A stretch of DNA of 64,000 nt from Siphonodentalium dalli (taxonomy: Eukaryota; Mollusca; Scaphopoda; Gadilida; Siphonodentaliidae), in NCBI GenBank assembly GCA_032622095.1, contig CP136061.1:84604324-84668323 (forward strand), given 5' to 3'. The notes below the pieces were generated by a model. It was given only the letters and a program-made list of their open reading frames with translations. It had not been told where the DNA came from and searched no databases. Below are positions 3,569 to 59,221 of this stretch, one piece after another. Numbering within the stretch: the first letter of the stretch is position 1; the number at the start of each line of letters is the position of its first letter. The position numbers and the translations under genes were made by a program.

Positions 3569-3570
3569 TA

Positions 3571-13288: not shown

Positions 13289-13302
13289 ATGGTGCCGCGC
13301 AT

Positions 13303-15205: not shown

Positions 15206-15217
15206 TATTTAGATATA

Positions 15218-15573: not shown

Positions 15574-15615
15574 TCTCCCACATCATTTAGGTTCATTTTG
15601 AAGAACAAATTACAG

Positions 15616-16828: not shown

Positions 16829-16930
16829 CAAGTAGTTTACTCCAGACTGCTTCCAGCTGTTCTTTTCATCTTCCCGACAAGTCTCGAGCTGTTGAAGGTG
16901 ATAAACAGGCACACACACATCAGTTATGAT

Positions 16931-17172
16931 CAAGCCTTGAAATAGGGTGTCTGTCATTTGCAGAATGAGGTCCCCAGAGGGTGAATTTAGTGATGCTACC
17001 CCCGCATAGTGGGCTAGCATCACCAAATTCACCCTCTGGGGACCTCATTCTGCTTACTCCTCAGCAGAATGAGGTCCCCAGAGGGTGAATTTGGTGATGC
17101 TAGCCCGCTATGCACTAAATTCACCCTCTGGGGACCTCATTCTGCAAATGACAGACACCCTATTTCAAGGCT
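16931..17172. mobile_element. Family e MITE, short form (no middle section)
   Basis: Outer ends CAAGCCTTGAAATAGGGTG and the inverse. Two AATGAGGTCCCC hairpins sit back to back (16962-17052 and 17064-17145), separated by only ~10 bp. Confidence 0.8.
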
Positions 17173-17316
17173 TAGTTTTTGAATTGTCTCATGATTCATT
17201 GATTATTTTATACCCCAGAATCTATATAAAACTAGCTACTATCTTCCAACACTTTCTATACCAAAGCAGCATTGTTCAGATAATAACTTCAACAAATGAC
17301 AGTTTGTTGAACTTAT

Positions 17317-18425: not shown

Positions 18426-18510
18426 TTATTATCTAAACATTTCGCTCAATAAATGGGGCTTATTCTGTACTTTTAAATTTTTGTATTTATCTGTCGTCTA
18501 TTTCATCACC

Positions 18511-18989
18511 TTAACCCTTTCAGTGCCAGGTTCGATTTTAGTATCAACCCATATAACCTGTGCCAATACATTCTCTTATATATGCGAGTCGACCATAGGT
18601 CGCCTCGCATATATAAGAGAATGCATTGGCCTAATAATTTTTCATCATTTGTTATTATTTTTTACAATTTTAATAATTGTTTCTCATATTCTTTAACAGA
18701 CGTATTTTGTAGGTTTAGTGCCAGGGAATCTTACATTTTTCATGGGCATCAAAATTATTACTATGAATACTTGGTGATAGTTTTGAGTTATAACATGCCC
18801 CTAAGGTTTTAACCAGTTTGTTTTTAAATTCGCTATGGCATGTTTAAGCATACCCAACAAAAATTCAACAACAAAAAAACAAACAAAATCGAAAATAAAA
18901 AACAAACAAATTTGTTATTTTTTTTTTAGGGATTTTACAGACTGTAAATTAGGGCCGATGAGATCGGCCCCTGGCACTGAAAGGGTTAA
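18511..18989. mobile_element. Family c TTAA MITE carrying the hairpin module
   Basis: Outer ends TTAA-CCCTTTCAGTGCCAG and CTGGCACTGAAAGGG-TTAA match the 216-bp foldback at 14146. Inside the left end is the GCCAATGCATTCTC-type hairpin module (18558-18631) otherwise found in families b and d. Confidence 0.8.
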
Positions 18990-19262
18990 ATCCCTCCAAC
19001 AAAAAATGGACCATTCTGATGTACACTGTTTGACTGACTGGGAGAATCCAATTAGTATATAAAGGGTTAATTTGGCTGTCCAAAATGTCCATAGTCTTGA
19101 GTTGAAGGTGACAGACGGAAACATGATCGGTTTACAATCAGACTGTTTTGTTGATTGAAGTGGGTGCTATTAGAACTCCGGAAACTCATCCCTCTTCCCG
19201 CTACATTTTTCGGCTCCCCGAAATGTGAGATACACTATTTCAATGCTTGCATGGTACACACA
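18990..19262 (-). other. 3' flank / probable 3' UTR of TPRA1
   Basis: Follows the TPRA1 stop codon. A ~45-bp block at 19115-19160 (ATCAGACTGTTTTGTTGAT) is a diverged copy of coding sequence in exon 10 (19325-19370). No AATAAA on the minus strand was found close by. Confidence 0.4.
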
Positions 19263-19509
19263 TCACATGGGTATTTGGAAATAGTGATCGCTGTTTAGAC
19301 TGTCAGACACATTTCCGTCGTTCACTGATCGGTTTATGATCAGACTGTTTTGTTGATCGAAGTGTGTACTGTTATAACTGCCTGTATTTTGCGAGTCATC
19401 AAGTTCAGTTTTTCCGTACGGCGTCTGATATGGCATGCTGACAGTGTCCTCTTCTGGCAACTCATCTGTCTGATGCTTATACGAGAACAAAATACTTGGC
19501 TGCGATTTC
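19263..19509 (-). CDS. TPRA1: TPRA1 exon 10 (C-terminal cytoplasmic tail)
   Basis: Acceptor GTGTTTCAG|G; encodes [16 protein letters not shown]..., a serine/asparagine-rich tail with SYNSTHFD, ending at TGA (19263-19265). Vertebrate TPRA1 has PKILFSYKCQVDE and SYSSTQFD at the same place. Confidence 0.92.
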
Positions 19510-22500
19510 CTGAAACACAGAAGGAGAAATTATGTTTACCTGAATTTACTGTGTCTGACATTTGCAGAATGAGGTCCCCAGAGGGTGAATTTAGCGTCTA
19601 TCCTGTACAGTGGGCTAACATCACCAAATTCACCATCTGAGCACCTCATTCTGCTTAGGCACATCTTCTGGGAAGTCTCTATAGTCTCAAATTAACGTTG
19701 TTTTTAGTTGCTTTTTCCCTTCTGTTCAGTTTCTATATCCTCTAATTTGGTGATGCTATCCCACTGTGCGGAATAGCATAACTAAATTCACCCTCTGGGG
19801 ATCTCATTCTGCAAAGGTGAGACACATTAATTTCAGGCTTAATACTATATGGTAGATTTTTATCACAGCTGCATGTTATATGTTATTAAATTGGTTTCAC
19901 CTTACCTGAAGAAATCTCTAAGAAATGTACCATACACCAAATGGTCAAAGAGGGTGAAATAGATTAAATTACCTGAAGAAATCTCAAAGAAATGTACCGT
20001 ACACCAACGGGTCAAACAGCATGAAATAGATTAAATTACCTGAAAAAATCTCTAAGAAATGTACCGTACACCAACGGGTCAAACAGCATGAAATAGATTA
20101 AATTACCTGAAGAAATCTCTAAGAAATGTACCGTACACCAAATGGTCAAACAGCGTGAAATAGATTAAATTAACTGAAGAAACTATCAGAAATGTACCGT
20201 ACACCAAATGGTTAAAGAGGGTGATATAGATTAAATTAACTGAAGAAATCTCTAAGAAATGTACCGTACACCAAAGGGTCAAACAGCATGAAATAGATTA
20301 AATTACCTGAAGAAATCTATCAGAAATGTATCGTACACCAACGGGTCAAACAGCGTGAAATAGATTAAATTAACTGAAGAAATCTCTAAGAAATGTACCG
20401 TACACCAAATGGTCAAACAGCGTGAAATAGATTAAATTACCTGAAGAAATCTATCAGAAATGTACCGTACACCAAAGGGTCAAACAGAGTGAAATAGATT
20501 AAATTAACTGAAGAAATCTCTAAGAAATGTACCGTACACCAAATGGTCAAACAGCGTGAAATAGATTAAATTAACTGAAGAAATCTCTAAGAAATGTATC
20601 ATACACCAAATGGTTAAAGAGGGTGAAATAGATTAAATTACCTGAAGAAATCTCTAAGAAATGTACCGTACACCAACGGGTCAAACAGTGTGAAATAGAT
20701 GTAAGTTGTTACATCAACCATACTGAAAAAAGAAGAAAGTAATAATTTTAGTTCTTCACTAAATAGATTTAGGCAGGTAGACCACAAACAAAGAATTTAT
20801 TTTTTAATTTTAAAACTAAATAATTTTAATTCACATGTCAGTAAACATTAAGTTTAAATAATAAAATAACAGATTCCCATTACAGTGCACAACCCTAACC
20901 CCTAACACTAATCCTAAACCTATTGACCAAAAAATGTAGGAATAAAAGCTCGGACAAAATTAGGCATGTTGCGAAACTTTTCAAAGACGAAAAAGGGATA
21001 ACTCCACCAAATAATGTCCAACAGACATCATAATCGCAGGTGCACAGGTTCCTATGGTGGTTAATGTCTGTGCCAAGTGTCACGGAAAATGATTAAAAAA
21101 CGACTGAGAAAAACACCGGACATTTTTGTCCGCAGATGGACAAGCTGATTCCAGTATGGTTATTGTTATAACAATAACCATCTCAAAGACAAATAGGATC
21201 CGGCCTTTGTTGAAATGCTGGTGTTTGTTTATACACATTCCTGGCAATTTCTATATCTCACAATTACAAATAACAAAAGTTATAATTGTCTCAAACTGCA
21301 CATGCCTTCCTTGGGTCTGCACGTATATTAAATTTTATCAGGATTTCCATCCTGCAGGTTTATTTGGCTCCACACGTTTATTTGGAAACAGTAGAGTATG
21401 CGATGTGGGTACTAACCAATGTCCGTCTTTCTCATTAAAGTAAATAAATGCGCTCCCGACGGCCTGCACAAGATTCAGCAACGACAACAGTAAGGCATAG
21501 TAGTAAAAGGCTTTCTTCGCTGAAAGAATAAAGAGTAGAACATTAATCATAGACTCAATCACAAGAATAAAGAGTAGAACATTAATCATAGACTCAATCA
21601 CAAGAATAAAGAGTAGAACATTAATCATAGACTCAATCACAAGAATAAAGAGTAGAACATTAATCATAGACTCAATCACAAGAATAAAGAGAACATTAAT
21701 CATAGACTCAATCACAAGAATAAAGAGTAGAACATTAATCATAGACTCAATCACAAGAATAAAGAGAACATTAATCATAGACTCAATCACAAGAATAAAG
21801 AGTAGAACATTAATCATAGACTCAATCACAAGAATAAAGAGTAGAACATTAATCATAGACTCAATCACAAGAATAAAGAGTAGGACATTAATCATAGACT
21901 CAATCACAAGAATAAAGAGTAGAACATTAATCATAGACTCAATCACAAGAATAAAGAGTAGAACATTAATCATAGACTCAATCACAAGAATAAAGAGTAG
22001 AACATTAATCATAGACTCAATCACAAGAATAAAGAGAACATTAATCATAGACTCAATCACAAGAATAAAGAGTAGAACATTAATCATAGACTCAATCACA
22101 AGAATAAAGAGTAGAACATTTATCATAGACTCAATCACAAGAATAAAGAGTAGAACATTAATCATAGACTCAATCACAAGAATAAAGAGAACATTAATCA
22201 TAGACTCAATCACAAGAATAAAGAGTAGAACATTAATCATAGACTCAATCACAAGAATAAAGAGAACATTAATCATAGACTCAATCACAAGAATAAAGAG
22301 TAGAACATTAATCATAGACTCAATCACAAGAATAAAGAGTAGAACATTAATCATAGACTCAATCACAAGAATAAAGAGAACATTAATCATAGACTCAATC
22401 ACAAGAATAAAGAGTAGAACATTAATCATAGACTCAATCACAAGAATAAAGAGTAGAACATTAATCATAGACTCAATCACAAGAATAAAGAGTAGAACAT

Positions 22501-25500
22501 TAATCATAGACTCAATCACAAGAATAAAGAGTAGAACATTAATCATAGACTCAATCACAAGAATAAAGAGTAGAACATTAATCATAGACTCAATCACAAG
22601 AATAAAGAGTAGAACATTAATCATAGACTCAATCACAAGAATAAAGAGTAGAACATTAATCATAGACTCAATCACAAGAATAAAGAGTAGAACATTAATC
22701 ATAGACTCAATCACAAGAATAAAGAGTAGAACATTTATCATAGACTCAATCACAAGAATAAAGAGTAGAACATTAATCATAGACTCAATCACAAGAATAA
22801 AGAGAACATTAATCATAGACTCAATCACAAGAATAAAGAGTAGAACATTAATCATAGACTCAATCACAAGAATAAAGAGAACATTAATCATAGACTCAAT
22901 CACAAGAATAAAGAGTAGAACATTAATCATAGACTCAATCACAAGAATAAAGAGTAGAACATTAATCATAGACTCAATCACAAGAATAAAGAGTAGAACA
23001 TTAATCATAGACTCAATCACAAGAATAAAGAGAACATTAATCATAGACTCAATCACAAGAATAAAGAGTAGAACATTAATCATAGACTCAATCACAAGAA
23101 TAAAGAGAACATTGATTATATATTGGTGGTGAGGGTTAATTATTATATATTTGAGTTCGATAACATGTGTCTATGGATTTGGTGGTGAGGGTTAATTATT
23201 ATATATTTGAGATGGATAGAATGTGTCTATGGATTTGGTGGCGAGGGTTAATTATTATATATTTGAGTTGGATAGCATGTGTCTATGGATTTGGTGGTGT
23301 GGGTTAATTATTATATATTTGAGATGGATAGAATGTGTCTATGGATTTGGTGGTGAGGGTTAATTATTATATATTTGAGTTGGATAGCATGTGTCTATGG
23401 ATTTGGTGGTGAGGGTTAATTATTATATATTTGAGTTGGATAACATGTGTCTATGGATTTGGTGGTGAGGGTTAATTATTATATATTTGAGTTCGATAAC
23501 ATGTGTCTATGGATTTGGTGGTGAGGGTTAATTATTATATATTTGAGTTCGATAACATGTGTCTATGGATTTGGTGGTGAGGGTTAATTATTATATATTT
23601 GAGTTCGATAACATGTGTCTATGGATTTGGTGGTGAGGGTTAATTATTATATATTTGAGTTCGATAACATGTGTCTATGGATTTGGTGGTGAGGGTTAAT
23701 TATTATATATTTGAGTTCGATAACATGTGTCTATGGATTTGGTGGTGAGGGTTAATTATTATATATTTGAGTTCGATAACATGTGTCTATGGATTTGGTG
23801 GTGAGGGTTAATTATTATATATTTGAGTTCGATAACATGTGTCTATGGATTTGGTGGTGAGGGTTAATTATTATATATTTGAGTTCGATAACATGTGTCT
23901 ATGGATTTGGTGGTGAGGGTTAATTATTATATATTTGAGTTCGATAACATGTGTCTATGGATTTGGTGGTGAGGGTTAATTATTATATATTTGAGTTCGA
24001 TAACATGTGTCTATGGATTTGGTGGTGAGGGTTAATTATTATATATTTGAGTTCGATAACATGTGTCTATGGATTTGGTGGTGAGGGTTAATTATTATAT
24101 ATTTGAGTTCGATAACATGTGTCTATGGATTTGGTGGTGAGGGTTAATCTATCTATTATATATTTTGAAAGATCTGTGTGTTTGTGTGTGTGTGTGTTTG
24201 TGTGTTTGAAATCGATGGAATCGAAAACGACTAAGCCAATTTCGATGAAACTTGGTATTTGGATGTGTTTTCGGCCGGAGACGAACATAGGCATATTTAT
24301 TTGTCCGTGCGAGGTCAACTTTTCACGTGCGGAGGTCAAATCTATTTTTAAGCCGTTTTTGCGCTAATATATTTCAGTTCGGTGCTCACAAATCGATTCG
24401 ATATAGCGCGAATAATAAATTGCCAGTCATATAATTTGCACGGTTAGAATCTGTGTGGCTTCATCTTTCCAACGATATATAATATGTATGTATCCGTTTT
24501 AGTTATCTGCCTCAATTATTAGGTACAAGTGGTACGATGCTTTTATCAGGATAAAATCAATGCGTAATTTCTATGACGTCGTCAGAGGTCATAAAGTTAG
24601 ATTACGTTAACTCTCACCCTGCCGATGCATTTGACTGTGTCGCGTTAACTCATCACCGGCCGAGGTATCCGCAAATGACATTGGGCTATATATCTCGGAA
24701 ACGGGTGTAGCTATCGACTTGAAATTTGGTATGTGAATGTATCTTGCCCCGGATACGAATTTTATCGGGTCGCCGAGCACGTGCGCGCATGCGCAGACCA
24801 GATCTAGGAAACGGGTGGAGCAATCGACTTGAAATTTGGTTTTTGAATAGCCCGGACGAAGTCGGGTCACCTTCTAGTACTATATATTTTGAGACTTCGT
24901 ATATATGTGTGTGTGTGTGTGTGTACTTCATAGAATCCAAAACGCGTGTAAAGATTGAGCTCAAACTTCCTATGTAAGTGTCAAATCCCACCGACACGAC
25001 CGTGGTCGTGGTTTAGAGAAGCTCAGAGCACCCGTTCTCCAATCTCAAATCACCGCAAAGGCACGGCGGGGGTTAATCAAGTGATTATTTAATGAGCGTT
25101 TGTTTTTGACGCATCTCTATAAAGAGCGTCTGTTTCCCATTCAACGTTATTCGCATCTGCAGAGTTATACGGGAACGCAAACGTTATCGCTCGAAATTTA
25201 TTCCCTGTGAGCACGGATGGCGCGCTTTGTTTTTACCGAAATCATCCCAGATAATCACGAATATAGCATCAGATTTCTCCCCAGATATACCGTTATAAAG
25301 CTACTGGAATCTGCCAATCTACGGGAAATTCCAGGGAATGCCGATTGAGCTCAAACTTGCTACCTACGGGAAGTGTCATATATATGAGTGTGTCCATTAT
25401 AGACTCTAACCGATTGATCTCAAACTTGCTAAATAAGAAAATAGCCCCCAAGCCGTAAATATCAACAACAACGATATTACTAAATACACGTTTTCGGCAA

Positions 25501-28500: not shown

Positions 28501-31500
28501 GAAATTACCATTTCATACAGTTGACAATTACATGCGTTTTAACCACAAAATCATGTTGTTTTGCAATTTATAACTGCGTTTAAAGTCTAAACGAAATGCG
28601 GTTTAATTGGGGCCATCCAAATTTGTATAGGTGCCAAATTGGGTACCATGTTTGAAAAACATATCTCAATCCATGCGAATGATTAATCATGATGGCACAT
28701 GATCGTCAATAGTCCAAGTCTTCTCGTACTAAAACTAGCTAAGATTTTGGGATGGAGAGATGCTAGTATTTAGTCCGAGATCGCGCGCATAGCCTTCTTA
28801 TGACACGAGTTAAGCGTTAATGACCCGCTCAAATAAAACCACAATTATATGAAATAAAATATCACAATTGCGACAATAAAAGATATTTTCCGCAGAAGAC
28901 ATGCTATTTGATCTGAACCCCACATCAGTTGTGAATTGAAAGCGGTAATTTAATGCGAAAAGAGACATTTACCGCAATGATTAAATTTTTTTAAAAGTAT
29001 GCGAACTCAGTTGACCTCGCGAACTGTGTTCGGCATTTTCCGTTGAAAATATTCTGTAGATTTTCGACTGACAACGCAAATTACGATGAATTCTCCATTG
29101 TAATCGTAATTATGTGTGTCAATAAATAAAAAATAAATAGATTAATTAAACATTGAAGATATAAATGTAATACATTAAATAAATTACGGGGAATTACAAC
29201 CCTCTCAAAGTTTAAAACAGTGTAAACACAACGAGCATTAGAATAAATAATATGGTGCTACATTTCCCACATTTGGTGGACTTCAGCGAAATTAAGATAT
29301 ATACTAAGCGAACAGAGCAATATACTGCTCTTGTTAAGCACACAAAAAATCAAACAAAATTTGTATAAATTTTTAACCTTAAGTTTGAAAAGTCCCACTA
29401 AAACGGAAGAACTATATTTCGAAACTGTGTGATTCGGTATATAGCATCATGTATTGCTTTGTTAGGTAAATCGAGTAAAATACACCACAGATTCCCGCCA
29501 CAGATCCTGGGCGTAACTCGTGTCATAAGAAGGCTATGCGCGCGATCTCGGACTAAATACTAGCATCTCTCCATCCCAAAATCTTAGCTAGTTTTAGTAC
29601 GAGAAGACTTGGACTAGATTGTAATGAAGGAGCATGTCAATGTCATTCAGAAAGGCAAACTTGTGGCACTATTAAAGAAAGTAAGCTGGCCCAAAAGGTT
29701 ACACAACAAATTTTATCCTGAGACTGTTTGTTTGCTGCATTATTACTGCAGAAATTTGACTGCGTACTGGGATGAGCAATCCCAGTTTCCACCAAAACAG
29801 GGAAAAGGAGCATTTGGTACCGTCAAATTTAACTATAATTGTTAAAGTGATGTGAAACACTCCAGTAGGGTGATCAAACAGCGTCCTGAATCGAGATGTA
29901 AATATTTACAATTGAGCGTAGTTCAGACAGTGTTTTCTATGGAGTGGTATGGTCAATTTCTTTGAAATTTTCTGCGTTTGTTATAGAATGCTACATTCCC
30001 CAGGTTTGTATAGCGCCTGAGTACTAACTTATCAATTTCACGCACCCGAACAAGTCCATAATATTCTTTAAATATAACTATAATAGTTGTATTGAGGATG
30101 TGCCTGACCTGTATACAAGGTGGACTCTTCCATTCAGTTATAAAAGTATCCTGGGTGTTCAGGACAAATAAGTGTAGAAGGATTCCTATTTATCAGAGGG
30201 AAATGTTCAGATAATAAGATTTTTGAACGTAATATTATCAGAACATATTCTAATGGATAACTAATCGTCAATGAAACAAACAAACTGGTTGGTTGCTTAT
30301 TATGTAAATGTGTGTAATGATGTCGTATGATTTTTCTATATATCGTGAAACTGAATTTCTGCCATGGTTCACTAAATAGGGGTTAAAATCACATGACTTC
30401 TGGTCACTTATTGCCATCGAATTGATATCCCATCTCGAAGCAATTGACCGACCAAAGTGATTGCCAAAGTGTGGAATTGGCAATGGACCAATGGAAAAAA
30501 TATGAAATTGGCTAATTCGGGACAGACCTCAGGATCTACAGTATGCGCAGACAGCTAACGATTAATAAGATCCATACTGACCTGGTAGCTGTACTCGATG
30601 ACGGACAAAGGTCCATGGCAGGATGAATATCAGTGAATATGTCTGAAATAAAACATGTAACTATGAGGATGAATACCAGCGAATATGTCTGCAATAACAC
30701 TATTTATGATATGCTTACCTACAAAATAGGGAAAAATTACCAAAACGTAGATCGTATTATGTATCTCTTTGAAGCTCACTGAAATACAATTTTTTTATTT
30801 CATTATAGCTTTCATTATTTCACTGTAGCTCGATGAATGAGTCGAATGACGTCATGATTTTTTCCTTGAGAGGGGTTTGCTACCTCTTAGCTGATTGGTG
30901 TCAGAAATTTGAGTCAACAATACACGATGGTGCTTTCTGTGTATTGTTCCCCGAACACATTGGACACATAAAAAGTTGTACTTAAAGCGCTATTCCAAGT
31001 TTCCTTCGACGTAAACCAGCTAGTGAAATTGGTAGAAACTATACTGATTTATGTCAAAGCATTCTCACTTTACCTGTTTATAATGGACTTTAACCCTTTA
31101 CCCAACAGAACGGCCCTGTGCCAATGCATTCTCTTATATATGCGAGTCGACCATATACCATAGGTCGCCTCGCATATATAAGAGAATGCATCGGCTTAAC
31201 ACATATTAAAAACGATAAAATTTTCAAAGAATGTAGAAAAATATTATATAAAAATTGTTAATAAATGTAAGAAAAAATTATAAAGTTGTTAAAGAATTTT
31301 TTAGGCCAATGCATTCTCTTATATATGCGAGGCGACCTATGGTCGACTCGCATATATAAGAGAATGCATTGGCACAGGGCATAACTGTAACCATCACAAT
31401 GTGGTCAATGAACCGGTTCCAATGATATCCATATTTGTATGGTGTTATTGAGACAGACCGAAGATATTTTAGGCTGTTGAAGCTTTATTTGGGCGTTTTT

Positions 31501-52500: not shown

Positions 52501-55500
52501 TTGAGACACCTACATACCAAGTTTCAATCAAATCGGATGATCATTACTGGAGTTATAACTCTGGACGGACGCACAGACACACGGACGGACGGACTGAGCT
52601 GATTACAATAGTCCCCGAAAATAAATTTTACGGGGGACAAAAAATAGGCCTGATGCTTCTTGAGAAGAAGACATTTTAAAAAATACTATAGGGGGAAACG
52701 TGATGTCCCTGGCATTTCGCTCATATTTGACCCAGTGACCCAATTGCAACAAATCTGCATCCCAGTCACTTAGGGACCATCCACACCAAATATGAATCAA
52801 TTTTTACTTGAAGTTCTGGAAAAGATGTTGACAGACATGTAAAGCTGGGTCTACAGGGGGAATATGCACCTGGATTCAGCGATACAGACATGTACAGCTG
52901 TGTCTACATGGGAATATGTACCTGGATTCAGCGATGTAAAGCTGGGTCTACATGGGGAATATGTAATGGGATTCAGCGATACAGACATGTACAGCTGGGT
53001 CTACATGGGGAATATGTACCTGGATTCAGCGATGTAAAGCTGGGTCTACATGGGGAATATGTACCTGGATTCAGTGATACAGATATGTAAAGCTGGGTCT
53101 ACATGGGAATATGTAACTGGATTCAGCGATACAGACATGTAAAGCTGGGTCTACATGGGAATATGTACAGTACCTGGATTCAGTGATACAGACATGTAAA
53201 GCTGGGTCTATGTACATGGGGAATATGTACCTGGATTCAGCGATACAGAAATGTAAAGCTGATTCTACATGGGGAATATGTAACCGGATTCAACAATGTA
53301 AAGCTGAGTCTAAATGGGGAATATGTACCTGGATTCAGCGATACAGACATGATAAGCTGATTCTACATGGGAATATGTGACTGCATTCAGTAATGTAAAG
53401 CGGAGTCTAAATGGGGAATATGTACTACTCTAGTAGCTCATGGTGGTTTTGTATGCACTTGTATGTCCAGAGCAAAACTCTTCATGAATCCACTAATTGA
53501 AGGTACACGAACAATATTTGGTTGGTGACACATTTCCCATTGAGGGCGAAATGGGCCAAATGGCCACGCCCCTTTTTGCGCGAAGTACTACCACCCGCCG
53601 TGACTATATCTCCAGAACCGTTGGACATAGGGGGTCGTGTGACCACTCAAAATGTGCGGAATGGACACATTATGGGGGGTCAGTAATACATTTTCATATC
53701 CAAAAGTCAATGGTTTTTAAGATAATTGCCAAAAACCAAAAAAAATCAATTTTTAAGGGCCCAATTTTGGGGTTCAGCACTTTTATCTCAAAGCTGAGCC
53801 CCCAATTCGAATTTTATTGATCTATATCCATCGGTACCACATATAGGTATAATTTCTGTACCATTATCGGATGGGATTGACCTTCAAGGAGCTCTTGACC
53901 CTGAAAATCCACATTATGGGGGGTCAGTAATACATTTTCATGTCCAAAAGTCAATGGTTTTTAAGATAATTGCCAAAAACCGATTTCAGCATGTTACGCA
54001 CCACAAGTATACAATACCACCAAGGCCACAGCATGGCTTATTCTCACTTTGCCGACGAGCCTGGAAAAATATCGCCGACAAGGTGTGATCGTCGCGCCTA
54101 TAGTCTGTATTAATTAAATGACAGTTTTCCCGGCTCCCGTTTGCAATGTTGTTTTGGCATGCCGCTAAACGAGTTTCACACGAGTCGTCATCCGATGAGC
54201 GATTTTCATGTTCACTCAGTGAAATAGTAGTAAACTGTTATTCGTATTGAGCGATCGTATTGAGCTATAAAAACCCCATGTCTCTCCAAAGTTGATCATA
54301 TTCAATGTTCTATCTTCATCATGGCAAGTTCTCAAGTAAATGTATTCTTCATCGCCAATGATCGAGGCAAACACCTGGTCTTCAACGACTTCAAATTCCG
54401 CATCAAATCACGTCGATCCGAGAATGTCCACTGGGTGTGTTGTAAGAATGGCTGTGGTGCCACCATCAACACAAAGAACGAGATATTTAGTTCTTCAATG
54501 AGTCAACACAACCATCTAGCCAATTCTGACCAGGTACGACACATGCATTTTTTTTTCAAATTCTTATAAAGAGCATCCATTCTTCTCTAAACAAAACGTC
54601 AGACAATAAAGAGCGTTCTAATTTATAATAATATTTAACTGATATATCTATATTCAAAAAATAGACATCAAATCTAATTTTATTTCTTTTTAACAGGTTA
54701 TGGCTCTACCATCAGATGTACACGATACATGCATTCGTCGACAACAATATGTTGCCACTTGTGTATGGATTCCTGTCGAACAAGAATCAGGCGACATACA
54801 CCAGATTCTTCCAGACACTAAAACAAACGGCCAACGATTTCAACATCCAGCTTAATTCGACGTGCCATCGCCTTACCATTCGTCCCCGTCGACCAGTTGA
54901 GCGATGATTGGCTCAATGTACTAGAAGAATGGGAAGAATATATGGAAACAACAGACCGCCCAATCGACGACCGCGTGACAAAGTTTTCCGATTCTGTGAC
55001 TATGCAGTGGAATGAAGTTGACGAAGGCCGTACCATGTGGAATCACTATAATACAACCGGCACCCGGACCACAAACCACGTCGAATGGTGGCACAGAAAA
55101 CTTCAAGGTTATATAGCCTATACAGAATCGACTATACTTCAACTGACTGGTGGCGACAGAGTTCAACCACAGAGAAGAAAATATCGGGCGGTCAACGCGT
55201 CTCTTAGACATTTCAAGAGAATATTAAGGGAAAACGAGATCGACGTTGTAGAATACTTAGATTCAATCGCTAAATTAGTTCGCCATTGAGTTTTTTGTTA
55301 AAGTATTGTCGTGTATTTGTTATTTGTTTGTTATCTCCTTGGATGTATTTTATTAATTATTTTGCATCAATAAATAAATAAAACATGACAGATTAGTTCA
55401 TCACATCAACATTGAATCAGCACCAAAGGTTCCAAAACCCTCGTTCCCAAATTGACAAATCATTAATAACCTACAAAAAGAGAGGACAAACCATTAAAAC

Positions 55501-58500
55501 ACCAAAAGAAAAGAGGAATAGACTATAAGCGGCAAATGATTGAAGTAAGGGATTATTGACACCTCGTGCAGGTACCCCCGGAATCAATAGCCGTCGGCAA
55601 AGTGAGATGCTCCCCACAGCATATGTATGACACTTTTTAAAGAAGTATCCGAATTCTCTGATCGACTTACATGTGTAAGAGCACAATTGACCACACACAA
55701 TGGGATTAGCTGGAAATTGCTGCTGAGGATGTGTTGACCCCGACACACAACATGAGCTCTTCATGACTGAACATGCCTTGGAAACTGGTGTGCTTTACCA
55801 AAAATCAGGTAACAATTGTGCTCTAATCAACAGAAATGTACAGATTGAACAAAACAGGTTTTCAAAATTTGTTATCAACATTTAACAGCTGATCTGATTT
55901 AAGTGACCAAGCTATGAAACATGCTAAACACTTTTACTAAATGGAATGACCAGCTGTTTGCTTCATGCAGCAGCCACATGTTGCGATCCTAAAATGGGTA
56001 TTGCATCTGGGCATAGTAAAAACATGTTGTAATCAGATGAGAGATGACCATATATACCAGTATATATTTCAGAAGTAATCAATTCTTCACAAAAAGTTTT
56101 AGGAAATGATGGAATTAGTTTTGATTGGCCATGATAGTTGCAGCACTTGCAGGTTGGAGAAGATGAGGGTCTATAATTTCACTAACATAATTCTTCATAA
56201 TAGCTAATAGCCCTCATAACTTACCATTTTAAAGATATTTTCATTTTCAATACCACCCCAGGTTAAGTGGTCCTGCTAATTTTATATTATGCTGATGGGT
56301 ACTGCTGGATTGCTATGATGTTTGTAGGTCAAAGCGATTCTGTTAAGTACCATTTTACCTAAAGTTGGTTATTTTGGCATTGTTTGGCTAATCCGAGCAA
56401 TTTGTGCAAAAGTCAGTGTCTGTATGAAACATTCAAGAACATATATACTTCAAAATATTTAATGTGTACGCTGATGATTGGTAAACAACAGGAATAGTCA
56501 TCTCAATTATGGCCAGTTTGTAAAAACCAGCACCCATTATTGAAATATTTCACAATATACATGTTTTTTAATGTTTTCTACACATAGTGGCTTATCCTCG
56601 ATTTGTTCAGATCGCTTTGCTCTACCTGAATATCATACCAAATTTATTAGCATCACCACTAAACTTGGGATGAATACTACCAAATGAATATATTGTGATA
56701 TACTAGTATAGGGCAATGGAAAAATAATGGTTGAGTCTTTTCTAAATATAATTCTAGTAAAACCTACACAATACCGTCTTGGTCTGATAAGACTCAGAGT
56801 CATGTTTATTTAGGAGTATAGACATGAAGTCCACCAGTCTCATGAAAATTAAATGGGCTCTGCACTAGTAACATCTGGGCTCCTGGGACCCATTAATATT
56901 GACAAATGCAACACACAAAAAAATACATAGTAACTTTCCTCAAACATAGATTATAACCTGACAATCATAGTGTTAGAATCAGTGTACATGTATATGTAGG
57001 CATGACCATAGCATGTTTTTGAAATACTGCAGAGTGCAGACCATAAATTTCACTAGAATATACATGTAGTTACTGCATGTACATCACACACATAAGGCGA
57101 CTGACACACATACACGTACATGCATGGTTCACAATATTTGACATGTAAAGTATATATATATATCTCCTGTGCCTATAACATCAAACCAAACGGTTTACAG
57201 TACTTTTACTGACATTTTTGGAGTGGCACATATACATACATAAAAAATAAAAGTCAATTTAAAGGGATGAAATGAAAAATAAATTTGTGCAACTATAATG
57301 GAGATCTATATAGCATTACAACATCCATAAATCTACAAAATCTACAACATCCACAAAAACATCTGACTATCATAGTCATTGGTAATGTGATCATTTTTCC
57401 TTGATAAGTTGAAACATGAACGAGGATTTCATAGCATGGCTACCTGCTGATGCTTGTATTTTTCTTCTAACTCTCTCGAGCTCACAACGCAACAGGATTG
57501 CATTCGGAATTTCAAGCCCATAAAGCTAGACACTTTAGAATCAAGCTTGCCAAATAAATTTCCATGAACCTCACATGAACTCACTCAGTTGAACACAAGG
57601 AACGATTGTCAAGTTGGAAAATATTCTGTATTTATGGAAGCCCTATATTTTTAATGTGTGGATTTATTATAACTGGACATGTATTTGTTAGTTTTGAACA
57701 GGACAATATATTTTAATATTACTGCAACTGCAGGCATAGGCAATCATGCCAGGCTAGCCATTATTTGTTCTAAAATAATGTACGTGTTAGGGAAATTGTA
57801 GAACCTTTATACAAAATGGTGATGCAGCCAATCAAAATTGATGTGGGACTGATAAAGACACAACCTGCTCGACTACCGAATCATACTGATTGATCAAATT
57901 GTAGTAACTCAACATTTACTAAACCTACTTGTGGGCTGAGTATAATTCAATTCAACATTAGAATACCATAAAAACACCCTGTTCTCCCATAAGTTTAAAG
58001 AAAATAACACATTGAACTCATTTACAAGTATATTGCTAATGTGATATATGTCATTCCATTTATAACCATTTTGACAGCCATCTCACATCAAAGGCCATGA
58101 CATCTAGATAACAAAAGATGAACTTCATTCAAATTATATCACCAGGTAACCTTTTTGTAGGAGTTTTGGGTTACTGATCAAATACCCAATAATTAATGAT
58201 TTCCTCAACATCTTTGTTATTGGGAAAATGTCTGTTTTTCATTCTACGACCAATATATTCCATCCAAAAACCTTATTTTCAGGGTCAAGAGCTGCTTGAA
58301 GGTCAATCCCATGCGATAATGGTACAGAAAATATCCGAAATGATACCTGTATGTGGCACCGATGGATATAGGTCAATAAAATTCTAATTAGGGGCATAGC
58401 TTTGAGATAAAAGTGCTGAACCCCAAAATTGGGCCCTTAAAAATGGATTTTGTTTTGTTTTTGGCAATTATCTTCAAAACCATTGACTTTTGAATATGAA

Positions 58501-59012
58501 AATGTATTACTGATTTACTGACCCCCCATAATGTGTCCATTCCGCACATTTTGAGTGGTGACACGACCCCCTATGTCCAACGGTTCTGGAGATATAGTCA
58601 CGGCGGGTGGTAGTACTTCGCGCAAAAAGGGGCGTGGCCATTTGACCCATTTCGCCCTCAATGGGAAAAGTGTCACCAACCAAATATTGTTCGTGTACCT
58701 TCAATTAGTGGATTCATGAAGAGTTTTGCTCTGGACATACAAGTGCATACAAAACCACCATGAGCTACTAGAGTATACCTGGATTCAGCGATACAGACAT
58801 GTACCGTACATCTGGGTCTACATGGGAAATATGTACCTGGATTCAGCGATGTCTTCATACAGAATCCATTGACATGGTGGAGGTGTTGTAATGTCATGTA
58901 TTGGAATAACACTTCCATTTGGTTCATTGGCAAAAGTGTCCACAAGAATTTCTTGGCCAGCAGCAGCTGTTGAAGCCTCCTTGATTGACATATGAACAAT
59001 TGAACCAGTCAT
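19263..59012 (-). CDS. TPRA1: TPRA1 orthologue, seven-transmembrane protein, 10 exons, 391 aa
   Basis: Orphan GPCR-like membrane protein (TPRA1/GPR175, Tmemb_40 family); the vertebrate protein is reported to act in Hedgehog signalling. Exons, 5' to 3': 59012-58837, 48495-48363, 47744-47655, 40619-40547, 37306-37227, 32183-32052, 30642-30582, 21519-21417, 20722-20642, 19509-19263. The 1176 nt are divisible by 3 with no internal stop, every intron is GT-AG, and all split codons join sensibly. Predicted residues: 1-58 extracellular with sequon N32GS; TM1 63-80 ([15 protein letters not shown]); TM2 ~96-121; TM3 134-157; TM4 ~169-188; TM5 ~216-237; TM6 250-276; TM7 284-306; cytoplasmic tail with ILFSYK. 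The family member in humans is 373 aa. The start ATG at 59012 has a good AAAAATGA context; in-frame ATGs upstream to 59063 are possible alternatives. Introns total ~38.6 kb and are built of transposons and minisatellites. Confidence 0.93.
19540..19838. mobile_element. Family e two-hairpin MITE in TPRA1 intron 9
   Basis: Ends ACCTGAATTTACTGTGTCTG and AGACACATTAATTTCAGGCT are inverted. AATGAGGTCCCC and GGGGATCTCATT hairpin stems lie at each end. It sits just upstream of exon 10's acceptor. Confidence 0.75.
19900..20641 (-). repeat. 67-bp minisatellite made from exon 9 and its splice donor
   Basis: Eleven intronic units follow exon 9, which itself forms the twelfth. Each contains the last ~59 bp of exon 9 (codons for [18 protein letters not shown]), the donor AG|GTAATTTAAT and the restart of exon sequence. 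Units differ by a few substitutions (for example ACCAACGGGTC versus ACCAAATGGTC). Confidence 0.93.
20642..20722 (-). CDS. TPRA1: TPRA1 exon 9 (TM7)
   Basis: Acceptor CTTTTTTCAG|TATG; encodes [20 protein letters not shown] then FLRDFF; donor TTCAG|GTAATT. Matches VDATTFLYFSFF.PLIY..FLRGFF of the family. The 3' 59 bp and the donor are expanded into the adjacent 67-bp array. Confidence 0.9.
20723..21416 (-). other. TPRA1 intron 8
   Basis: No clear element. 20930-21130 has weak similarity in style to pearl-like cores (AAAGGGATAACTCC). A C/A-rich CCCTAACCCCTAAC tract lies near 20890. Confidence 0.4.
21417..21519 (-). CDS. TPRA1: TPRA1 exon 8 (TM6)
   Basis: Acceptor TTATTCTTTCAG|CG; encodes [20 protein letters not shown]; donor GACATTG|GTTAGT. 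The polypyrimidine tract of this acceptor is the first unit of the 39-bp minisatellite. Read-through of the array gives a spurious 585-codon ORF. Confidence 0.92.
21525..23112 (-). repeat. 39-bp minisatellite (about 41 units) abutting exon 8 acceptor
   Basis: On the plus strand the unit is AGAATAAAGAGTAGAACATT + AATCATAGACTCAATCACA; about a quarter of the units lack GTA (36 bp). Unit lengths are multiples of 3 and lack stops on the minus strand, giving a long artefactual ORF continuous with exon 8. The exon-proximal unit supplies the acceptor's pyrimidine tract. Confidence 0.95.
23113..24147. repeat. 56-bp minisatellite, left block (~18 units)
   Basis: The unit contains GGGTTAATTATTATATATTT, GAGTTCGATAACATGTGTC and TATGGATTTGGTGGTGA. 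Later units are almost identical, which suggests recent expansion. It continues at 25914-26145 after a Helitron insertion. Confidence 0.95.
24148..25913 (+). mobile_element. Non-autonomous Helitron
   Basis: Starts TCTATCTATTATATATTTTG and ends with CTAG. CCGCC-AGT-GGCGG forms a hairpin 10 bp before that CTAG end (25889-25901). It sits exactly between A and T of the 56-bp array (GGGTTAA^TTATTATATATT), so array sequence is continuous on removal and there is no target duplication, as expected of rolling-circle insertion. A GTGTGTTT microsatellite lies near the 5' end. The body has two diverged blocks with GAAACGGGTGKAGC and CGACTTGAAATTTGGT. No Rep/helicase ORF. Confidence 0.9.
25914..26145. repeat. 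56-bp minisatellite, right block (~4 units)
   Basis: Same units as 23113-24147, more diverged (GAGATGGATAGAATG variants). Two further worn units occur near 27200-27290. Confidence 0.9.
26669..26850. mobile_element. Short TA-flanked MITE (CTCTCAGGTGCC ends)
   Basis: TA-CTCTCAGGTGCC and GGCACCTGAGAG-TA are perfect inverted ends. The interior has several CACTATTATT repeats. About 178 bp, no ORF. Confidence 0.75.
26895..27025. repeat. ~21-bp tandem repeat (ATTATGTGTACCCTACATGG)
   Basis: About six units; the second copy of the duplication has three to four units at 27540-27625. Confidence 0.85.
27751..28109. mobile_element. TIR element (GTTCAGACGACCACGAT ends)
   Basis: Inverted ends ~38 bp long share GTTCAGACGACCACGAT and CAATYG, around a 280-bp non-coding centre. 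A truncated left end is present in the first duplicated block (~27155-27190). Superfamily not determined; no clean target duplication. Confidence 0.7.
28110..28709. other. No gene; intronic spacer
   Basis: GAATTTCATTTCTATGACAT occurs twice (28288 and 28440), about 150 bp apart. Nothing else recognised. Confidence 0.4.
28710..29616. mobile_element. 907-bp TIR element with ~103-bp perfect ends (TAGTCCAAGTC family)
   Basis: Bases 28710-28813 and 29514-29616 are inverted copies without obvious mismatch, starting TAGTCCAAGTCTTCTCGTAC. The flanks GATCGTCAA / GATTGTAA may be an imperfect 8-9-bp target duplication. The interior is AT-rich with no ORF. The short relative at 3869-3978 keeps only the outer ~50 bp. 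Confidence 0.85.
29617..30581. other. No confident gene; intronic spacer
   Basis: A 73-codon plus-strand ORF at 29624-29845 has mixed composition ([12 protein letters not shown]) but no family I recognise and no good splice context. Confidence 0.35.
30582..30642 (-). CDS. TPRA1: TPRA1 exon 7 (end of TM5)
   Basis: Acceptor TTTATTTCAG|ACA; encodes [20 protein letters not shown]; donor TACCAG|GTCAGT. The acceptor and first ~22 exon bases occur again 46 bp upstream. Confidence 0.9.
30655..30700 (-). repeat. Duplicate of exon 7 acceptor edge
   Basis: Minus strand TTATTGCAG|ACATATTCGC and GGTATTCATCC repeat the acceptor and first ~22 bases of exon 7 with three substitutions, 46 bp upstream. The first copy within the exon continues into the full coding sequence; this one does not. 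Confidence 0.8.
31090..31526. mobile_element. Family b TTAA MITE, complete (437 bp)
   Basis: TTAA-CCCTTTACCCAACAGAAC and GTTTTGTTGGGTAAAGGG-TTAA. Hairpin modules (GCCAATGCATTCTC stems) at 31112-31195 and 31302-31375; the first has a small loop duplication (CCATATACCATAGG). piggyBac-type target. Confidence 0.88.
31563..31846. mobile_element. Family c/b hybrid TTAA MITE, right half deleted
   Basis: Left end TTAA-CCCTTTGAGTGCCAGG (family c), then the shared hairpin module (31615-31684) and the GAGCCCCAGACAAAC / GGGGCTCCCTG centre of family d; the right half is lost, leaving GGATTAAAGGG-TTAA. Confidence 0.7.
32052..32183 (-). CDS. TPRA1: TPRA1 exon 6 (extracellular loop, TM5)
   Basis: Acceptor TTGTTCCTAG|GGT; encodes [10 protein letters not shown]...[18 protein letters not shown]; donor TTCCTA|GTGAGT. 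The LYPD and GHGG..FW motifs of the family are recognisable. In phase 0 at both ends. Confidence 0.93.
32184..32415. other. Intronic spacer with ORF relic
   Basis: Near 32357-32400 the frame [16 protein letters not shown] matches the relic at 6720-6800. Confidence 0.35.
32446..33562 (-). mobile_element. hAT transposon remnant, 1117 bp, exact 8-bp target duplication
   Basis: Terminal inverted repeats TAGAGATGGGCGGTT / AACCGCCCATCTCTA have the YAGNGRTGGGC form typical of hAT. CTCCTTAA is present immediately before (32438-32445) and after (33563-33570), and its removal restores the mariner-like MITE. The interior is mostly AT-rich; only the start of a transposase remains near the right end. Inner subterminal motifs include several CGGTTTCGGTT / AACCGAAACC copies, possible transposase-binding sites. 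Confidence 0.93.
33333..33443 (-). pseudogene. N-terminal BED zinc-finger fragment of a hAT transposase
   Basis: From the ATG at 33443 the frame reads [18 protein letters not shown] and then [12 protein letters not shown] before a stop (33333-33335). S-P-V-W-x-Y-F followed by K-C-x-x-C is the start of a BED-type zinc finger, found at the N-terminus of hAT transposases. The remaining ~600 residues are absent. A GTGAAA next to the stop could be an old splice donor. Confidence 0.75.
33894..34169. other. No gene; intronic spacer
   Basis: Worn similarity to the 56-bp minisatellite unit (GATGTGTTTATGGAATGAG...GGGTTAAT) near 33950-33985 and 34110-34125. Confidence 0.4.
34170..35117 (+). mobile_element. 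Pearl-like family A element with inserted hairpin
   Basis: Opens with the ACAGTC-AAT-GACTGT hairpin and GTTCACC, and ends GACGGACGACGAG...TCAGGTGAGCTAAAA. A ~145-bp hairpin (34447-34592; arms TCTCACACTCGTCC..TTGAGCC) and AT-rich filler interrupt its 5' half. Confidence 0.75.
35118..35640. other. No gene; intronic spacer
   Basis: Unique AT-rich sequence. Confidence 0.4.
35641..36075. mobile_element. Family e two-hairpin MITE
   Basis: Left end CAAGCCTGAATCTAGTGTCTG; hairpins at 35670-35762 and ~35967-36056; middle with GCAAATTTGGGGGATATAG. The right end is worn (CAGACACACAGGC). Confidence 0.8.
36076..36473. other. No gene; intronic spacer
   Basis: G-rich tract (GGGGGG) near 36280-36430; no element recognised. 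Confidence 0.4.
36474..36870 (+). mobile_element. Pearl-like family A element, 5'-truncated
   Basis: Begins in a core unit (TTATGTCCCTGGCCCGGCCC), has two units, a GGACGGATGGATGG run (36778-36812) and the end CAGGTGAGCTAAAA. Confidence 0.8.
36871..37226 (-). other. TPRA1 intron 5 proximal sequence
   Basis: Contains a two-copy ~46-bp tandem repeat at ~36966-37044 (TATTAACAATAYGC, GCGAGCAGCTA). No element otherwise. Confidence 0.45.
37227..37306 (-). CDS. TPRA1: TPRA1 exon 5 (cytoplasmic loop, TM4)
   Basis: Acceptor TTTTTTTCAG|GT; encodes [17 protein letters not shown] and VYSVTQ; donor ACACAG|GTAACT. Matches the GHLES.SSIKRVL...YSVTQ region of the family. Confidence 0.93.
37330..37640. repeat. 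30-bp minisatellite upstream of TPRA1 exon 5
   Basis: About nine units of GTTATTAAAGGGACCCATG + TTACTCACAGA. The first ~45 bp (AAGTCTGTATAACGTCACCA, CTAAAGGGTCCC) match a unit of the 69-bp array at 61860-62930, so both come from one repeat family. The ORFs on both strands are artefacts of the 30-bp period. Confidence 0.9.
37641..38072. mobile_element. Family e two-hairpin MITE, left end lost
   Basis: Hairpins at 37645-37714 and 37955-38044 and the middle CCAAATTGGCAGATATACA. The left terminus runs into the 30-bp array. Confidence 0.7.
38088..38202. repeat. 28-bp tandem repeat, four units
   Basis: Units of TTAAGCCTGAAGGTCATTCC + ACACAATA. Confidence 0.9.
38210..38395 (+). CDS. Possible small secreted peptide ORF (61 aa)
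   Basis: An ATG with fair context (GACATGG) opens an ORF starting [18 protein letters not shown], which has the look of a signal peptide, followed by a 43-residue polar segment with one Cys. It lies antisense inside TPRA1 intron 4 in non-repetitive sequence. There are no homology or splice clues; it may be chance. Confidence 0.2.
   Translation: MAHALLVIVTMVYLAICQSLSKLDAIISYRFMKNVEHCLYEAEPSMNSNPIIIKTNGIGNK
38488..39400. mobile_element. Family d TIR element split by a pearl-like element
   Basis: Left TACCCTGTGCC plus hairpin module (38496-38565) and GGGGCTC centre; right hairpin (39299-39367) and GGTAAAAAAATCCCGACTTA end. AATTAGGTAT occurs at both outer borders (38470, 39400). The outer left TIR is missing. 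Confidence 0.75.
38762..39282 (+). mobile_element. Pearl-like element, family D, copy 1
   Basis: Starts ATAAAAGGTCAGCAGACC (hairpin GGTC-AGCA-GACC) and GTGTCCCCCGACAAC; ends ACGTCGGGGGACAAAAA (inverted). Two core units of ~170 bp share AAAACTGTAGGAGGAGTTGA and TTGCAAATCACCAACATG; a GGACGCACGGACGG run precedes the end. Nested in a family d element. Confidence 0.8.
39401..40076. other. No gene; intronic spacer
   Basis: Unique AT-rich sequence. Confidence 0.4.
40078..40146. mobile_element. Solo hairpin module with a variant loop
   Basis: GCCAATGTATTCTCTTATAT...AGAGAATGCATTGGC stands alone, without any of the three outer TIR types. Its loop is GAGACTCCCTTTGGGAGACT instead of the usual GTCGACC/GGTCGCC. 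Confidence 0.8.
40172..40392. repeat. 33-bp minisatellite, seven units
   Basis: Unit GGAAGGGTTAATAAGGGAGG + TAACTCCAGTCAT; the period is a multiple of 3, so ORFs appear on both strands. Located ~150 bp from exon 4. Confidence 0.93.
40513..40546 (-). repeat. 21-bp duplications of the exon 4 donor edge
   Basis: On the minus strand TTTGGGCTTGCTTTCG|GTAAG occurs at the true exon end and again 21 nt downstream, with a third partial copy (TTTTGGGCTT). Use of the second donor would add seven in-frame residues. Confidence 0.88.
40547..40619 (-). CDS. TPRA1: TPRA1 exon 4 (TM3)
   Basis: Acceptor TTAATTTCAG|TTG; encodes [19 protein letters not shown]; donor TTTCG|GTAAGT. A second in-frame donor 21 nt downstream arises from duplication of the exon edge. 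Confidence 0.92.
40690..41330 (+). repeat. Diverged pearl-like family B units
   Basis: Four worn units with GTGCCGATGGAT, AAATCCAAGATGGCT and GGCCATGTTTTTTGAC. No ends recognised. The rest of 40620-41666 holds no gene. Confidence 0.6.
42094..42196. repeat. 18-bp AT minisatellite
   Basis: Five to six units of ATTTATATAATATAATAC at the 3' end of the MULE transposase relic. Confidence 0.92.
42191..43341 (-). pseudogene. MULE transposase with FLYWCH zinc finger, inactivated
   Basis: Starts [17 protein letters not shown] at 43341. The FLYWCH finger (YLVFNHYKF..., W-T-C, C-S-A-T) is cut by a TAA before its H-N-H ligands. An intron is likely (donor CTA|GTATGT near 43030; acceptor TTTTGCAG near 42909). 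The second exon reads [18 protein letters not shown] (first catalytic D region), LPLVYG-like [23 protein letters not shown] (second D), [11 protein letters not shown] (C-x-x-H) and TTNHVEGWH (candidate E). It has an in-frame TAG just before DGTFD and a frameshift near 42395 (LEDAPAG/NDIEKF). The C-terminus ends abruptly at FNFNVV before the AT minisatellite. Confidence 0.88.
45149..46338. mobile_element. Composite element F, copy 1 (CGAGAGGCC ... GGTAAACA)
   Basis: Splits the family B unit GCAAAGAGTA^AAATCCAAG. Left end CGAGAGGCCGATCACGATCG is a GCCGATC-AC-GATCGGC hairpin, then ATGTTAACCCAT. The right end is the hairpin TACCATACTATGGTA and ATGGGTAAACA, inverted to the left motif. TA flanks both sides. 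Its 3' half (45863-46338) is a family C pearl-like unit: AATGTC-AAT-GACATT hairpin, two ~150-bp cores (CATAACTCC, GAACTCGATCTGTATTTTGG) and a GACAGACAGACGG run. The left half differs from copy 2. Confidence 0.75.
46484..47265 (+). mobile_element. Pearl-like family A element with internal foldback
   Basis: Starts ACAGTC-AAT-GACTGT and GCTCACC; core units up to ~47240. An inserted hairpin with ~65-bp arms (46666-46803; AAGCAAACAGGTACACTCC / GGAGTGTACCTGTTTGCTT) interrupts it. The GGAC run and 3' end are missing. Confidence 0.7.
47266..47654. other. Intronic spacer
   Basis: Unique sequence of higher GC; a GGGGGGATGTTGTGGGGGGA repeat lies next to exon 3. Confidence 0.4.
47655..47744 (-). CDS. 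TPRA1: TPRA1 exon 3 (TM2 and loop)
   Basis: Thirty codons, acceptor TTACAG|GTT and donor GACAAG|GTTTGT. Encodes [14 protein letters not shown]...VADK, matching the RAVVSMTV...VADK region of vertebrate TPRA1. Confidence 0.92.
47945..48290. repeat. Dispersed repeat with GGGGAATAACTC hairpin, copy 2
   Basis: Diverged copy of 10765-11060: AAACCGTGAACATGTTGTTT start, GGGGGAATAACTC hairpin, and TAGATTGTTATTAAAACCGT near the end. It reaches to within ~20 bp of the duplicated exon 2 edge. Confidence 0.7.
48305..48362 (-). repeat. 54-bp duplicate of the exon 2 donor edge
   Basis: Minus strand ACTAAAGTCCACARACAG...TTTATGGTTTG|GTAARN occurs twice in tandem, at the exon end and again downstream with donor GTAAAG. 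The extra 54 nt are in frame and stop-free, so use of the second donor would insert 18 residues. Confidence 0.88.
48363..48495 (-). CDS. TPRA1: TPRA1 exon 2 (TM1, start of TM2)
   Basis: Acceptor TTTTCTTTCAG|A, then [18 protein letters not shown]; donor GGTTTG|GTAAGT. Highly conserved TM1 block of the family. The 3' edge, including the donor, is copied again at 48309-48362. Confidence 0.93.
48540..48953. mobile_element. Family e two-hairpin MITE in TPRA1 intron 1
   Basis: AATAGTGTGTCTGACATTTG left end, GACAGACACTACATG..GCAGGCTTG right end; hairpins at 48562-48642 and 48829-48923. Confidence 0.8.
48954..50540. other. No gene; intron 1 spacer
   Basis: Mostly unique AT-rich sequence. A partial family A start (AGATAGTCAATAACTGT) is at 49273. 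A duplicated stretch AGATTTATAGA...CTTAGTATGAGCTGGTATATACA occurs near 49940-50065. A 90-codon plus-strand ORF (50120-50392) has no recognised domain. Confidence 0.4.
50541..51345 (+). mobile_element. Pearl-like tandem-core element, family E
   Basis: Three and a half ~168-bp units with GTCCAATAACTCTGCTGAAA, ATCCGGCCGGACCTGG and GAACTCATTCTAGATACTG, then a GGACAGACGGAACGG run (51262-51308). The flanking inverted motif is not certain (TATCCCCCTG / TTACCCCCTA). Confidence 0.7.
51386..52842 (+). mobile_element. Pearl-like family A element split by a family D element
   Basis: AAAGACTGAGAAGACTGGGAC start; family A sequence breaks at ACCCTCCATG...AACA (51832) and resumes at TAGGCCTGATGCTTCTTGAG (52645). 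The 3' end is lost at the exon-1-derived array. Confidence 0.75.
51833..52643 (+). mobile_element. Pearl-like family D element, copy 2
   Basis: ATAAAAGGTCAGCAGACC and GTGTCCCCGGACAAC start; ACGGGGGACAAAAAA end. It has one D-type core (AAAACTGTAGGAGGAGTTGA) and then two cores of another type (CATAACTCTRGGAAAAATCA, CTGTATNTTGATAT), so core units are mixed; a GGACGGACGGACTG run is at 52563-52593. Confidence 0.8.
52838..53425 (-). repeat. 45-53-bp minisatellite made from the exon 1 donor edge, main block
   Basis: About twelve units; on the minus strand each contains ATCGCTGAATCCAG|GTACAT, the last 14 bases of exon 1 with its donor, then ATTCCCCATGTAGACCCAGC. The orientation is the same as the exon. 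The array was later split by the 53426-58775 element. Confidence 0.9.
54266..54273 (+). promoter_or_regulatory. TATA box of the MULE transposase gene
   Basis: GAGCTATAAAAACC lies 55 bp before the transposase ATG at 54321. Confidence 0.5.
54321..55289 (+). pseudogene. MULE transposase with FLYWCH finger, catalytic core deleted
   Basis: Exon 1 (54321-54532) encodes [20 protein letters not shown] and an intact-looking FLYWCH finger: W-V-C-C..C-G-A-T and H-N-H. An intron follows (CAG|GTACGA ... TTTAACAG, 54533-54697). After it the frame meets [19 protein letters not shown], but the DGTFD region is missing. A second deletion joins FNIQ to IRRAIALPF, removing the TDFE and C-x-x-H block. The C-terminal half ([14 protein letters not shown]) runs open to TGA at 55289. 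AATAAA signals follow at ~55368-55382. Two of the three acidic catalytic positions are absent, so it cannot be an active transposase. Confidence 0.88.
55623..58260. other. Interior of the long-TIR element; no recognised gene
   Basis: 2.6 kb of unique AT-rich sequence without the repeat families found elsewhere. On the minus strand 55764-55620 reads [19 protein letters not shown], then [15 protein letters not shown]; with the MULE removed it runs a further ~12 codons to a stop. It is cysteine-rich but unidentified. It could be captured host sequence or chance. Confidence 0.35.
58776..58836 (-). repeat. Exon-1-edge minisatellite, exon-proximal unit
   Basis: One unit between exon 1 and the long-TIR element; carries the second donor CAG|GTATAC, 58 nt past the true one (frame-shifting if used). 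Confidence 0.88.
58837..59012 (-). CDS. TPRA1: TPRA1 exon 1 (coding part, residues 1-58)
   Basis: Encodes the N-terminal ectodomain ending [12 protein letters not shown] and two bases of an Arg codon; donor CCAG|GTACAT. The family motif L-Y-E-D-I fits vertebrate TPRA1. The donor and preceding exon bases are repeated in tandem in the intron. The sequence just 5' (59030-59100) has a ~46-bp duplication (ATATTCATCAACTYGTTCAT). Confidence 0.88.
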
Positions 59013-59221
59013 TTTTAATTTAGTTCCCACAGCAGATATATTCATCAACTCGTTCATCAACATCAGAAGAAATCAGCAGTCATATTCATCAACTTGTTCA
59101 TGTGCCTTCCATACTTGGATAAATGTGGAAGAGAGGAATCTGAAATTATTCAATATTAAATTAACAATTTAACACGACACTTACCAGGTCTCACTTGTGT
59201 GCAAACCTGACTATAATATAG
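59013..59221 (-). other. TPRA1 5' flank
   Basis: ATTCATCAACTYGTTCATNA is duplicated at 59040 and 59085 (~46-bp repeat with GAAATCAGCAG). In-frame ATGs reach 59063 before a TGA. No TATA box or CpG cluster is evident, so a non-coding first exon further upstream cannot be excluded. Confidence 0.4.

Follow-up and report, generated by a model that had tools for sequence, protein, structure and literature searches.

Why are the edges of several exons of one gene repeated in tandem within the introns beside them? The gene is TPRA1, and the window in which it lies (the whole stretch of DNA that was analysed, 64 kb, at C1:84604324-84668323) belongs to a mollusc assembly of 2,226,750,531 bases in 9 contigs. 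Positions below are those of the window unless a contig is named.

TPRA1 and the copies at its splice borders

The gene model of TPRA1 on the minus strand comprises 10 exons, with GT/AG at all nine introns and a single open frame, and the predicted protein has 408 amino acids counted from the first Met. The Pfam domain Tmemb_40 (PF10160) was found in this protein (E 2.9e-66). Its best 20 species-named matches were all from molluscs, at 54–66% identity, and most of them bear the name transmembrane protein adipocyte-associated 1 (TPRA1); in a tree of 33 proteins it fell within the molluscs, without a resolved position there. Alignment with 10 homologues revealed no insertion or gap at the nine exon junctions, the exception being Octopus, with one residue fewer at the exon 1/2 junction. 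An origin of the TPRA1 exons from the arrays described below was considered and rejected, as the exons are conserved coding sequence. Rfam searched at gathering scores gave no match in the 64-kb window. Pfam gave no match at E ≤0.01 to other genes in the three plus-strand frames of 1-14402 and the three minus-strand frames of 4501-18902 (translated with X at stops). The exons of the gene model are:

58837..59063, minus strand, exon 1, from the presumed start codon (border scoring used 59081 as the 5' limit)
48363..48495, minus strand, exon 2
47655..47744, minus strand, exon 3, without a border copy
40547..40619, minus strand, exon 4
37227..37306, minus strand, exon 5, without a border copy; 53 bp separate its acceptor from a 30-bp array upstream
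32052..32183, minus strand, exon 6, without a border copy
30582..30642, minus strand, exon 7
21417..21519, minus strand, exon 8
20642..20722, minus strand, exon 9
19263..19509, minus strand, exon 10, up to the stop codon

All 18 splice borders were scored in the same way, for a copy no more than 600 bp away that matches both sides of the border, with a threshold of 28. Tandem copies span five of the 18, namely the donors of exons 1, 2, 4 and 9 and the acceptor of exon 7; these five score 32–110, and the remaining 13 score 16 or less. At all five the copies are on the intron side, and the exon side stays below threshold. This confirmed the statement of the initial annotation that five exons (1, 2, 4, 7 and 9) have tandem copies of the exon edge together with the splice site. 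Its view that they arose independently holds as well, each unit being derived from its own exon, which makes five separate events. The scoring replaced two earlier ones, one blind to units under 40 bp (5/18 borders vs 29.6% of gene positions, score 16) and another that let long arrays reach far-off borders. The arrays, and the other repeats at exon edges, are:

58776..58850, minus strand, exon 1 donor edge and first intronic copy (functional GT after 58837; border of the copy after 58779)
53426..58775, plus strand, transposon of 5,350 bp bounded by long terminal inverted repeats, separating the first intronic copy of the exon 1 array from the second
52831..53425, minus strand, the 11 further copies belonging to the exon 1 donor array, ~53 bp each
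48305..48410, minus strand, exon 2 tail and donor with one intronic copy, 54–55 bp apart, ~2 copies
40511..40562, minus strand, exon 4 tail and donor, 21-bp unit in two identical copies and a partial third
30618..30699, minus strand, exon 7 acceptor and exon start with one upstream copy, 46 bp apart, 30/36 bases identical
21524..23107, minus strand, 39-bp minisatellite at exon 8, ~41 copies, stopping 4 nt before the exon and without exon sequence
19902..20700, minus strand, exon 9 donor array of 12 copies, the functional one among them; each 67-bp unit joins 59 bp from the exon tail to 8 bp from the intron
~19120..19175, minus strand, partial and diverged copy of the exon 10 interior in the 3' flank, with no splice border in it

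Counted together, the exon 1 array consists of the functional edge and 12 copies in the intron, with a unit of ~53 bp. Past the two exon 4 copies a further TTTGGGCTT was found, which may be what slippage would leave or, alternatively, a third partial copy. The minisatellite that had been described as abutting the exon 8 acceptor does so, with the 4-nt gap given above; it does not span the border, and its last unit supplies the pyrimidine tract of exon 8. The reported exon 10 copy in the 3' flank is likewise present, but it repeats the exon interior and therefore has no place among copied splice borders.

According to the initial annotation, no pattern of exon-edge minisatellites had been described. 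This proved mistaken: the amphioxus "mirages", minisatellite-like duplications of exon-intron borders, are such a pattern, described in the available portions of PMC3087553 for Adh3 and the globins BflGb6 and BflGb9, and those of PMC3902484 extend the list by PGBD5 and name TnC. The published mirages found were from amphioxus, and no report of mirages in a mollusc was found among the matches listed in the literature search. The TPRA1 observation is thus confirmed, its kind is already known, and its host group is new as far as the literature was searched.

Age and decay of the copied sites

The transposon within the exon 1 array has 261 nt of terminal inverted repeats that are 99% complementary, a FLYWCH domain at 54264-54569 (E 6.9e-7) and a weak match to MULE at 54665-54907 (E 0.003, below Pfam's cut-off). 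On either side of it stands GTA, a 3-bp duplication of the bases that follow the AG in a copy. MULE elements usually make a target duplication of 8–10 bp, which the 3-bp GTA duplication would presumably not fit. When the flanks are joined with a single GTA, they form a unit that aligns to the remaining array (for example, 80 bases at 92.5%), and we conclude that the exon 1 array is older than the insertion. Because the transposon lies inside the array, 11 of the 12 intronic copies sit 5.4 kb further on. A second element, in TPRA1 intron 3 (42375-43437, minus strand), has matches to FLYWCH (E 2e-7) and MULE (E 1.2e-12).

It is exceedingly improbable that the copies are errors of assembly. Tandem arrays are prone to mis-assembly, the available part of PMC3087553 reports an amphioxus globin draft with an aberrantly assembled mirage, and the two exon 4 copies are identical; on the other side, the exon 9 units differ among themselves, as do the exon 7 copies, a transposon flanked by a 3-bp duplication of its own has split one array, like structures occur in other genes on another contig (see below), and the contigs seen span 190–301 Mb.

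If the original splice sites are used, the frame is open and the protein is collinear with its homologues. Of the intronic copies, 6/11 in the exon 9 array and 8/12 in the exon 1 array keep the GT (14/23 in total) and 9/23 have lost it, so the spare sites are not being kept; the idea in the initial annotation that selection retains them finds no support here. The lost donors mostly carry T for G at the first intron base (5/5 in the exon 9 array, 19905-20641; 3/4 in the exon 1 array, 52870-53381), a bias that could be due to chance or to selection against decoy donors.

The units of the exon 9 array were compared over ten units including the functional one, with units 20173 and 19905 excluded. 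Variable columns made up 12 of the 50 exon-derived and one of the 8 intron-derived ones (mean difference 0.083 vs 0.067), and an in-frame stop occurs in one of the units. Among the intron-derived columns, the variable one is the first base of the donor, where T stands for G in 4/10 (5/12 over all units); splice signals are thus not better kept than the remainder of the unit.

Selection for spare or regulatory splice sites would seem most at home at exons 4 and 2, where use of the copy's donor would extend the exon in frame, by 7 and 18 codons, respectively; the copy at exon 4 does not differ from the original, even at the donor. The residues matching these extensions are absent from all 10 aligned homologues. 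Against such selection, reading through into the copies of exon 9 or exon 1 meets a stop codon, GT is missing from the donor copies of these two arrays in the numbers given above, and the exon-derived bases of the exon 9 units are as variable as the intron-derived ones. We regard it as very unlikely to have maintained the copies. They look like products of neutral drift; use of the exon 2 and exon 4 copies as minor alternative donors is possible.

Border copies and the repeat background

The window is rich in repeats, with 77 rows of tandem repeats, and at the threshold of 28 27.7% of the positions within introns and 30.8% of those in the flanks have a local tandem copy; the same scoring gave 23% in the first 10-kb stretch of contig C1. 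With such coverage of the introns, 5/18 borders is ordinary and not above background (P 0.56 at 27%). A stricter null counted copies on one side only, chosen because exon-side copies would break the gene; its background at threshold 28 is 6.6–6.7%. When the border set was slid around the window, the intron-side-only test gave 5 observed vs 1.05–1.17 expected, with P 0.003–0.006 (~0.003–0.007 for an expectation of ~1.2), although these figures, being post hoc (TPRA1 was noticed because it looked striking), overstate the case. The mean was 1.17 with at least five matches in 0.64% of shifts at threshold 28, and 1.05 with 0.32% at threshold 32. At least four donors were matched in ~0.1% of shifts (P ~0.001, equally post hoc); TPRA1 has four of nine. 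At threshold 36 the TPRA1 borders drop to 3/18 vs ~1.0 expected (background 5.3–5.5%).

For comparison, the myosin head family (PF00063) was sampled in the same genome, with 85 genome matches, 30 of them taken as loci, plus 14 fetched stretches. Splice borders were picked by a simple scorer, which recovered 17/17 borders tried when run as a control on TPRA1 after three codons had been trimmed off the exon cores. Merging of paralogues by hand, guided by the identities among the matches listed, gave four groups, and others at ~80–87% entered the count separately. Also counted were three loci whose match contains stops (L011, L015 and L039) and several border picks with poor scores; borders no more than 620 bases from the end of a stretch were dropped, and an acceptor scoring 27 (L048) fell short of the threshold of 28 and was uncounted. 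Repeats are scarcer around the first set of myosin loci than around TPRA1 (any copy 7%, one-sided ~3% on each side).

Among 94 distinct myosin borders (49 donors and 45 acceptors), three had intron-side copies, vs 2.95 expected from their own introns. The first is a 67-bp copy across the donor of one exon in the gene at C4:288.89 Mb (L016) and in its partner at 291.68 Mb (L018), the exon being 99.5% identical between the two. The second is at another donor of the 288.89-Mb gene (L051), with the copy 205 bp on. The third is at an acceptor of the 291.68-Mb gene (L047, C4:291687900-291691100), upstream of which the exon start is copied 13 times, with acceptor-like sequence ahead of the outermost copy. 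All three belong to one closely related gene pair, and the other sampled myosin loci gave none at threshold, a hint that mirages cluster by gene. The 291.68-Mb gene has, in addition, a 59-bp array that leaves another donor unspanned and begins ~12 nt past it.

Border mirages are therefore not private to TPRA1, and a general attraction of tandem duplication to borders was not seen in this small sample of one family. The proposal that slippage or repair is targeted at exon borders, for which comparison with other genes had been named as the refuting test, finds no backing outside TPRA1, where 3/94 stand against 2.95, again from a small, one-family sample. An excess over background is thus absent from the myosin genes and present in TPRA1 itself (5 vs ~1.2), where it was found by looking.

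The arrays probably represent chance births of minisatellites across splice borders in a repeat-rich genome, of the mirage type, tolerated while the original site works. Short tandem duplications of ~20–70 bp, which are frequent in this genome and may stem from slippage or short-homology repair, would have happened to begin across splice borders. With the original border still working, the extra copies would land in the intron and be neutral there, and could then grow, shrink and decay as any minisatellite does; the sites in use would be the outermost ones (the first donor and the last acceptor). All five copies would lie on the intron side because the protein would have suffered from duplications on the exon side. 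The observed part of this reading consists of the structures with their one-sidedness, the open frame, the loss of GT, the presence of the array before the transposon and the near-background rate in other genes. Against chance stand the intron-side count in TPRA1 and its four matched donors out of nine, the difference between TPRA1 and the myosin sample (Fisher P 0.0026) and the two pooled (8/112 vs 4.12 expected, P 0.059).

Some of these numbers would also suit tandem duplication aimed at exon edges in some genes, for instance by transcription- or splicing-linked breaks near donors. TPRA1 has its surplus at borders and above all at donors, and the matches cluster by gene, in TPRA1 and one myosin pair; however, the 94 myosin borders are without excess, TPRA1 is ordinary by coverage, and it was chosen for its striking look. 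We consider aimed duplication unlikely. That tandem duplications arise preferentially at splice borders, above all at donors, in some of this mollusc's genes, perhaps because transcription or splicing exposes the DNA to breaks, appears quite doubtful. If it were true, mirages would be a recurrent, animal-wide class of mutation that feeds new splice sites and exon lengthening; a true border excess across the genome would make the mutation process itself new.

Relatives of the arrays and other repeats of the window

The TPRA1 arrays resemble the amphioxus mirages in that tandem copies span the exon-intron border (5/18; the exon 8 array only abuts its border and is not counted). In both, donors and acceptors are affected (four donors and one acceptor in TPRA1, and an acceptor also in myosin) and the splice dinucleotide persists in many but not all copies (GT in 14/23 here; AG/GT in amphioxus, as the available portions of PMC3087553 and PMC3902484 describe). 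The TPRA1 unit sizes lie within the 10–72 bp of the amphioxus Adh3 units, for which the available part of PMC3087553 also reports length instability and somatic change. The amphioxus mirages are described, besides, as leaving regular splicing undisturbed and as differing in copy number between haplotypes or somatically. The present case differs in its mollusc host, in having five borders affected in one gene, and in one array being split by a transposon; it is known here from one assembly. The mollusc and amphioxus arrays are a recurrence of the same kind and do not reflect common descent of the repeats.

Introns can be gained by tandem duplication of exon sequence containing AG/GT, as in the Rogers model and in cases from Drosophila and potato. 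The TPRA1 arrays are like the intron-gain model in that tandem duplication copies splice signals, as the available part of PMC2891723 sets out for that model. They give no sign of an intron gained at a new position: the copies sit within introns, and the protein is collinear with its homologues at the junctions. They resemble ordinary intronic minisatellites in that neither their unit sizes nor their copy numbers lie outside what the other arrays of the window show; they differ from these in that the terminal unit is a real exon edge.

The occurrence of mollusc mirages, several of them in TPRA1 and others in myosin genes, suggests that mirages may arise wherever minisatellites are frequent. 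They are natural tests of how the spliceosome chooses among near-identical borders, and raw material for new splice sites.

In intron 7, one 56-bp unit recurs in separate arrays at 23123-24148, 25914-26147 and ~27190-27300, the first of which adjoins the 39-bp exon 8 array. A palindrome of ~67 bp starting CCAATGCATTCTCTTATAT recurs across 10301-61626, for example at 31306-31372. Its arms number 26 in the window (with no more than two mismatches; none expected), as 12 pairs, 10 of them spaced 48 bp, and two single arms. It is a short hairpin element.
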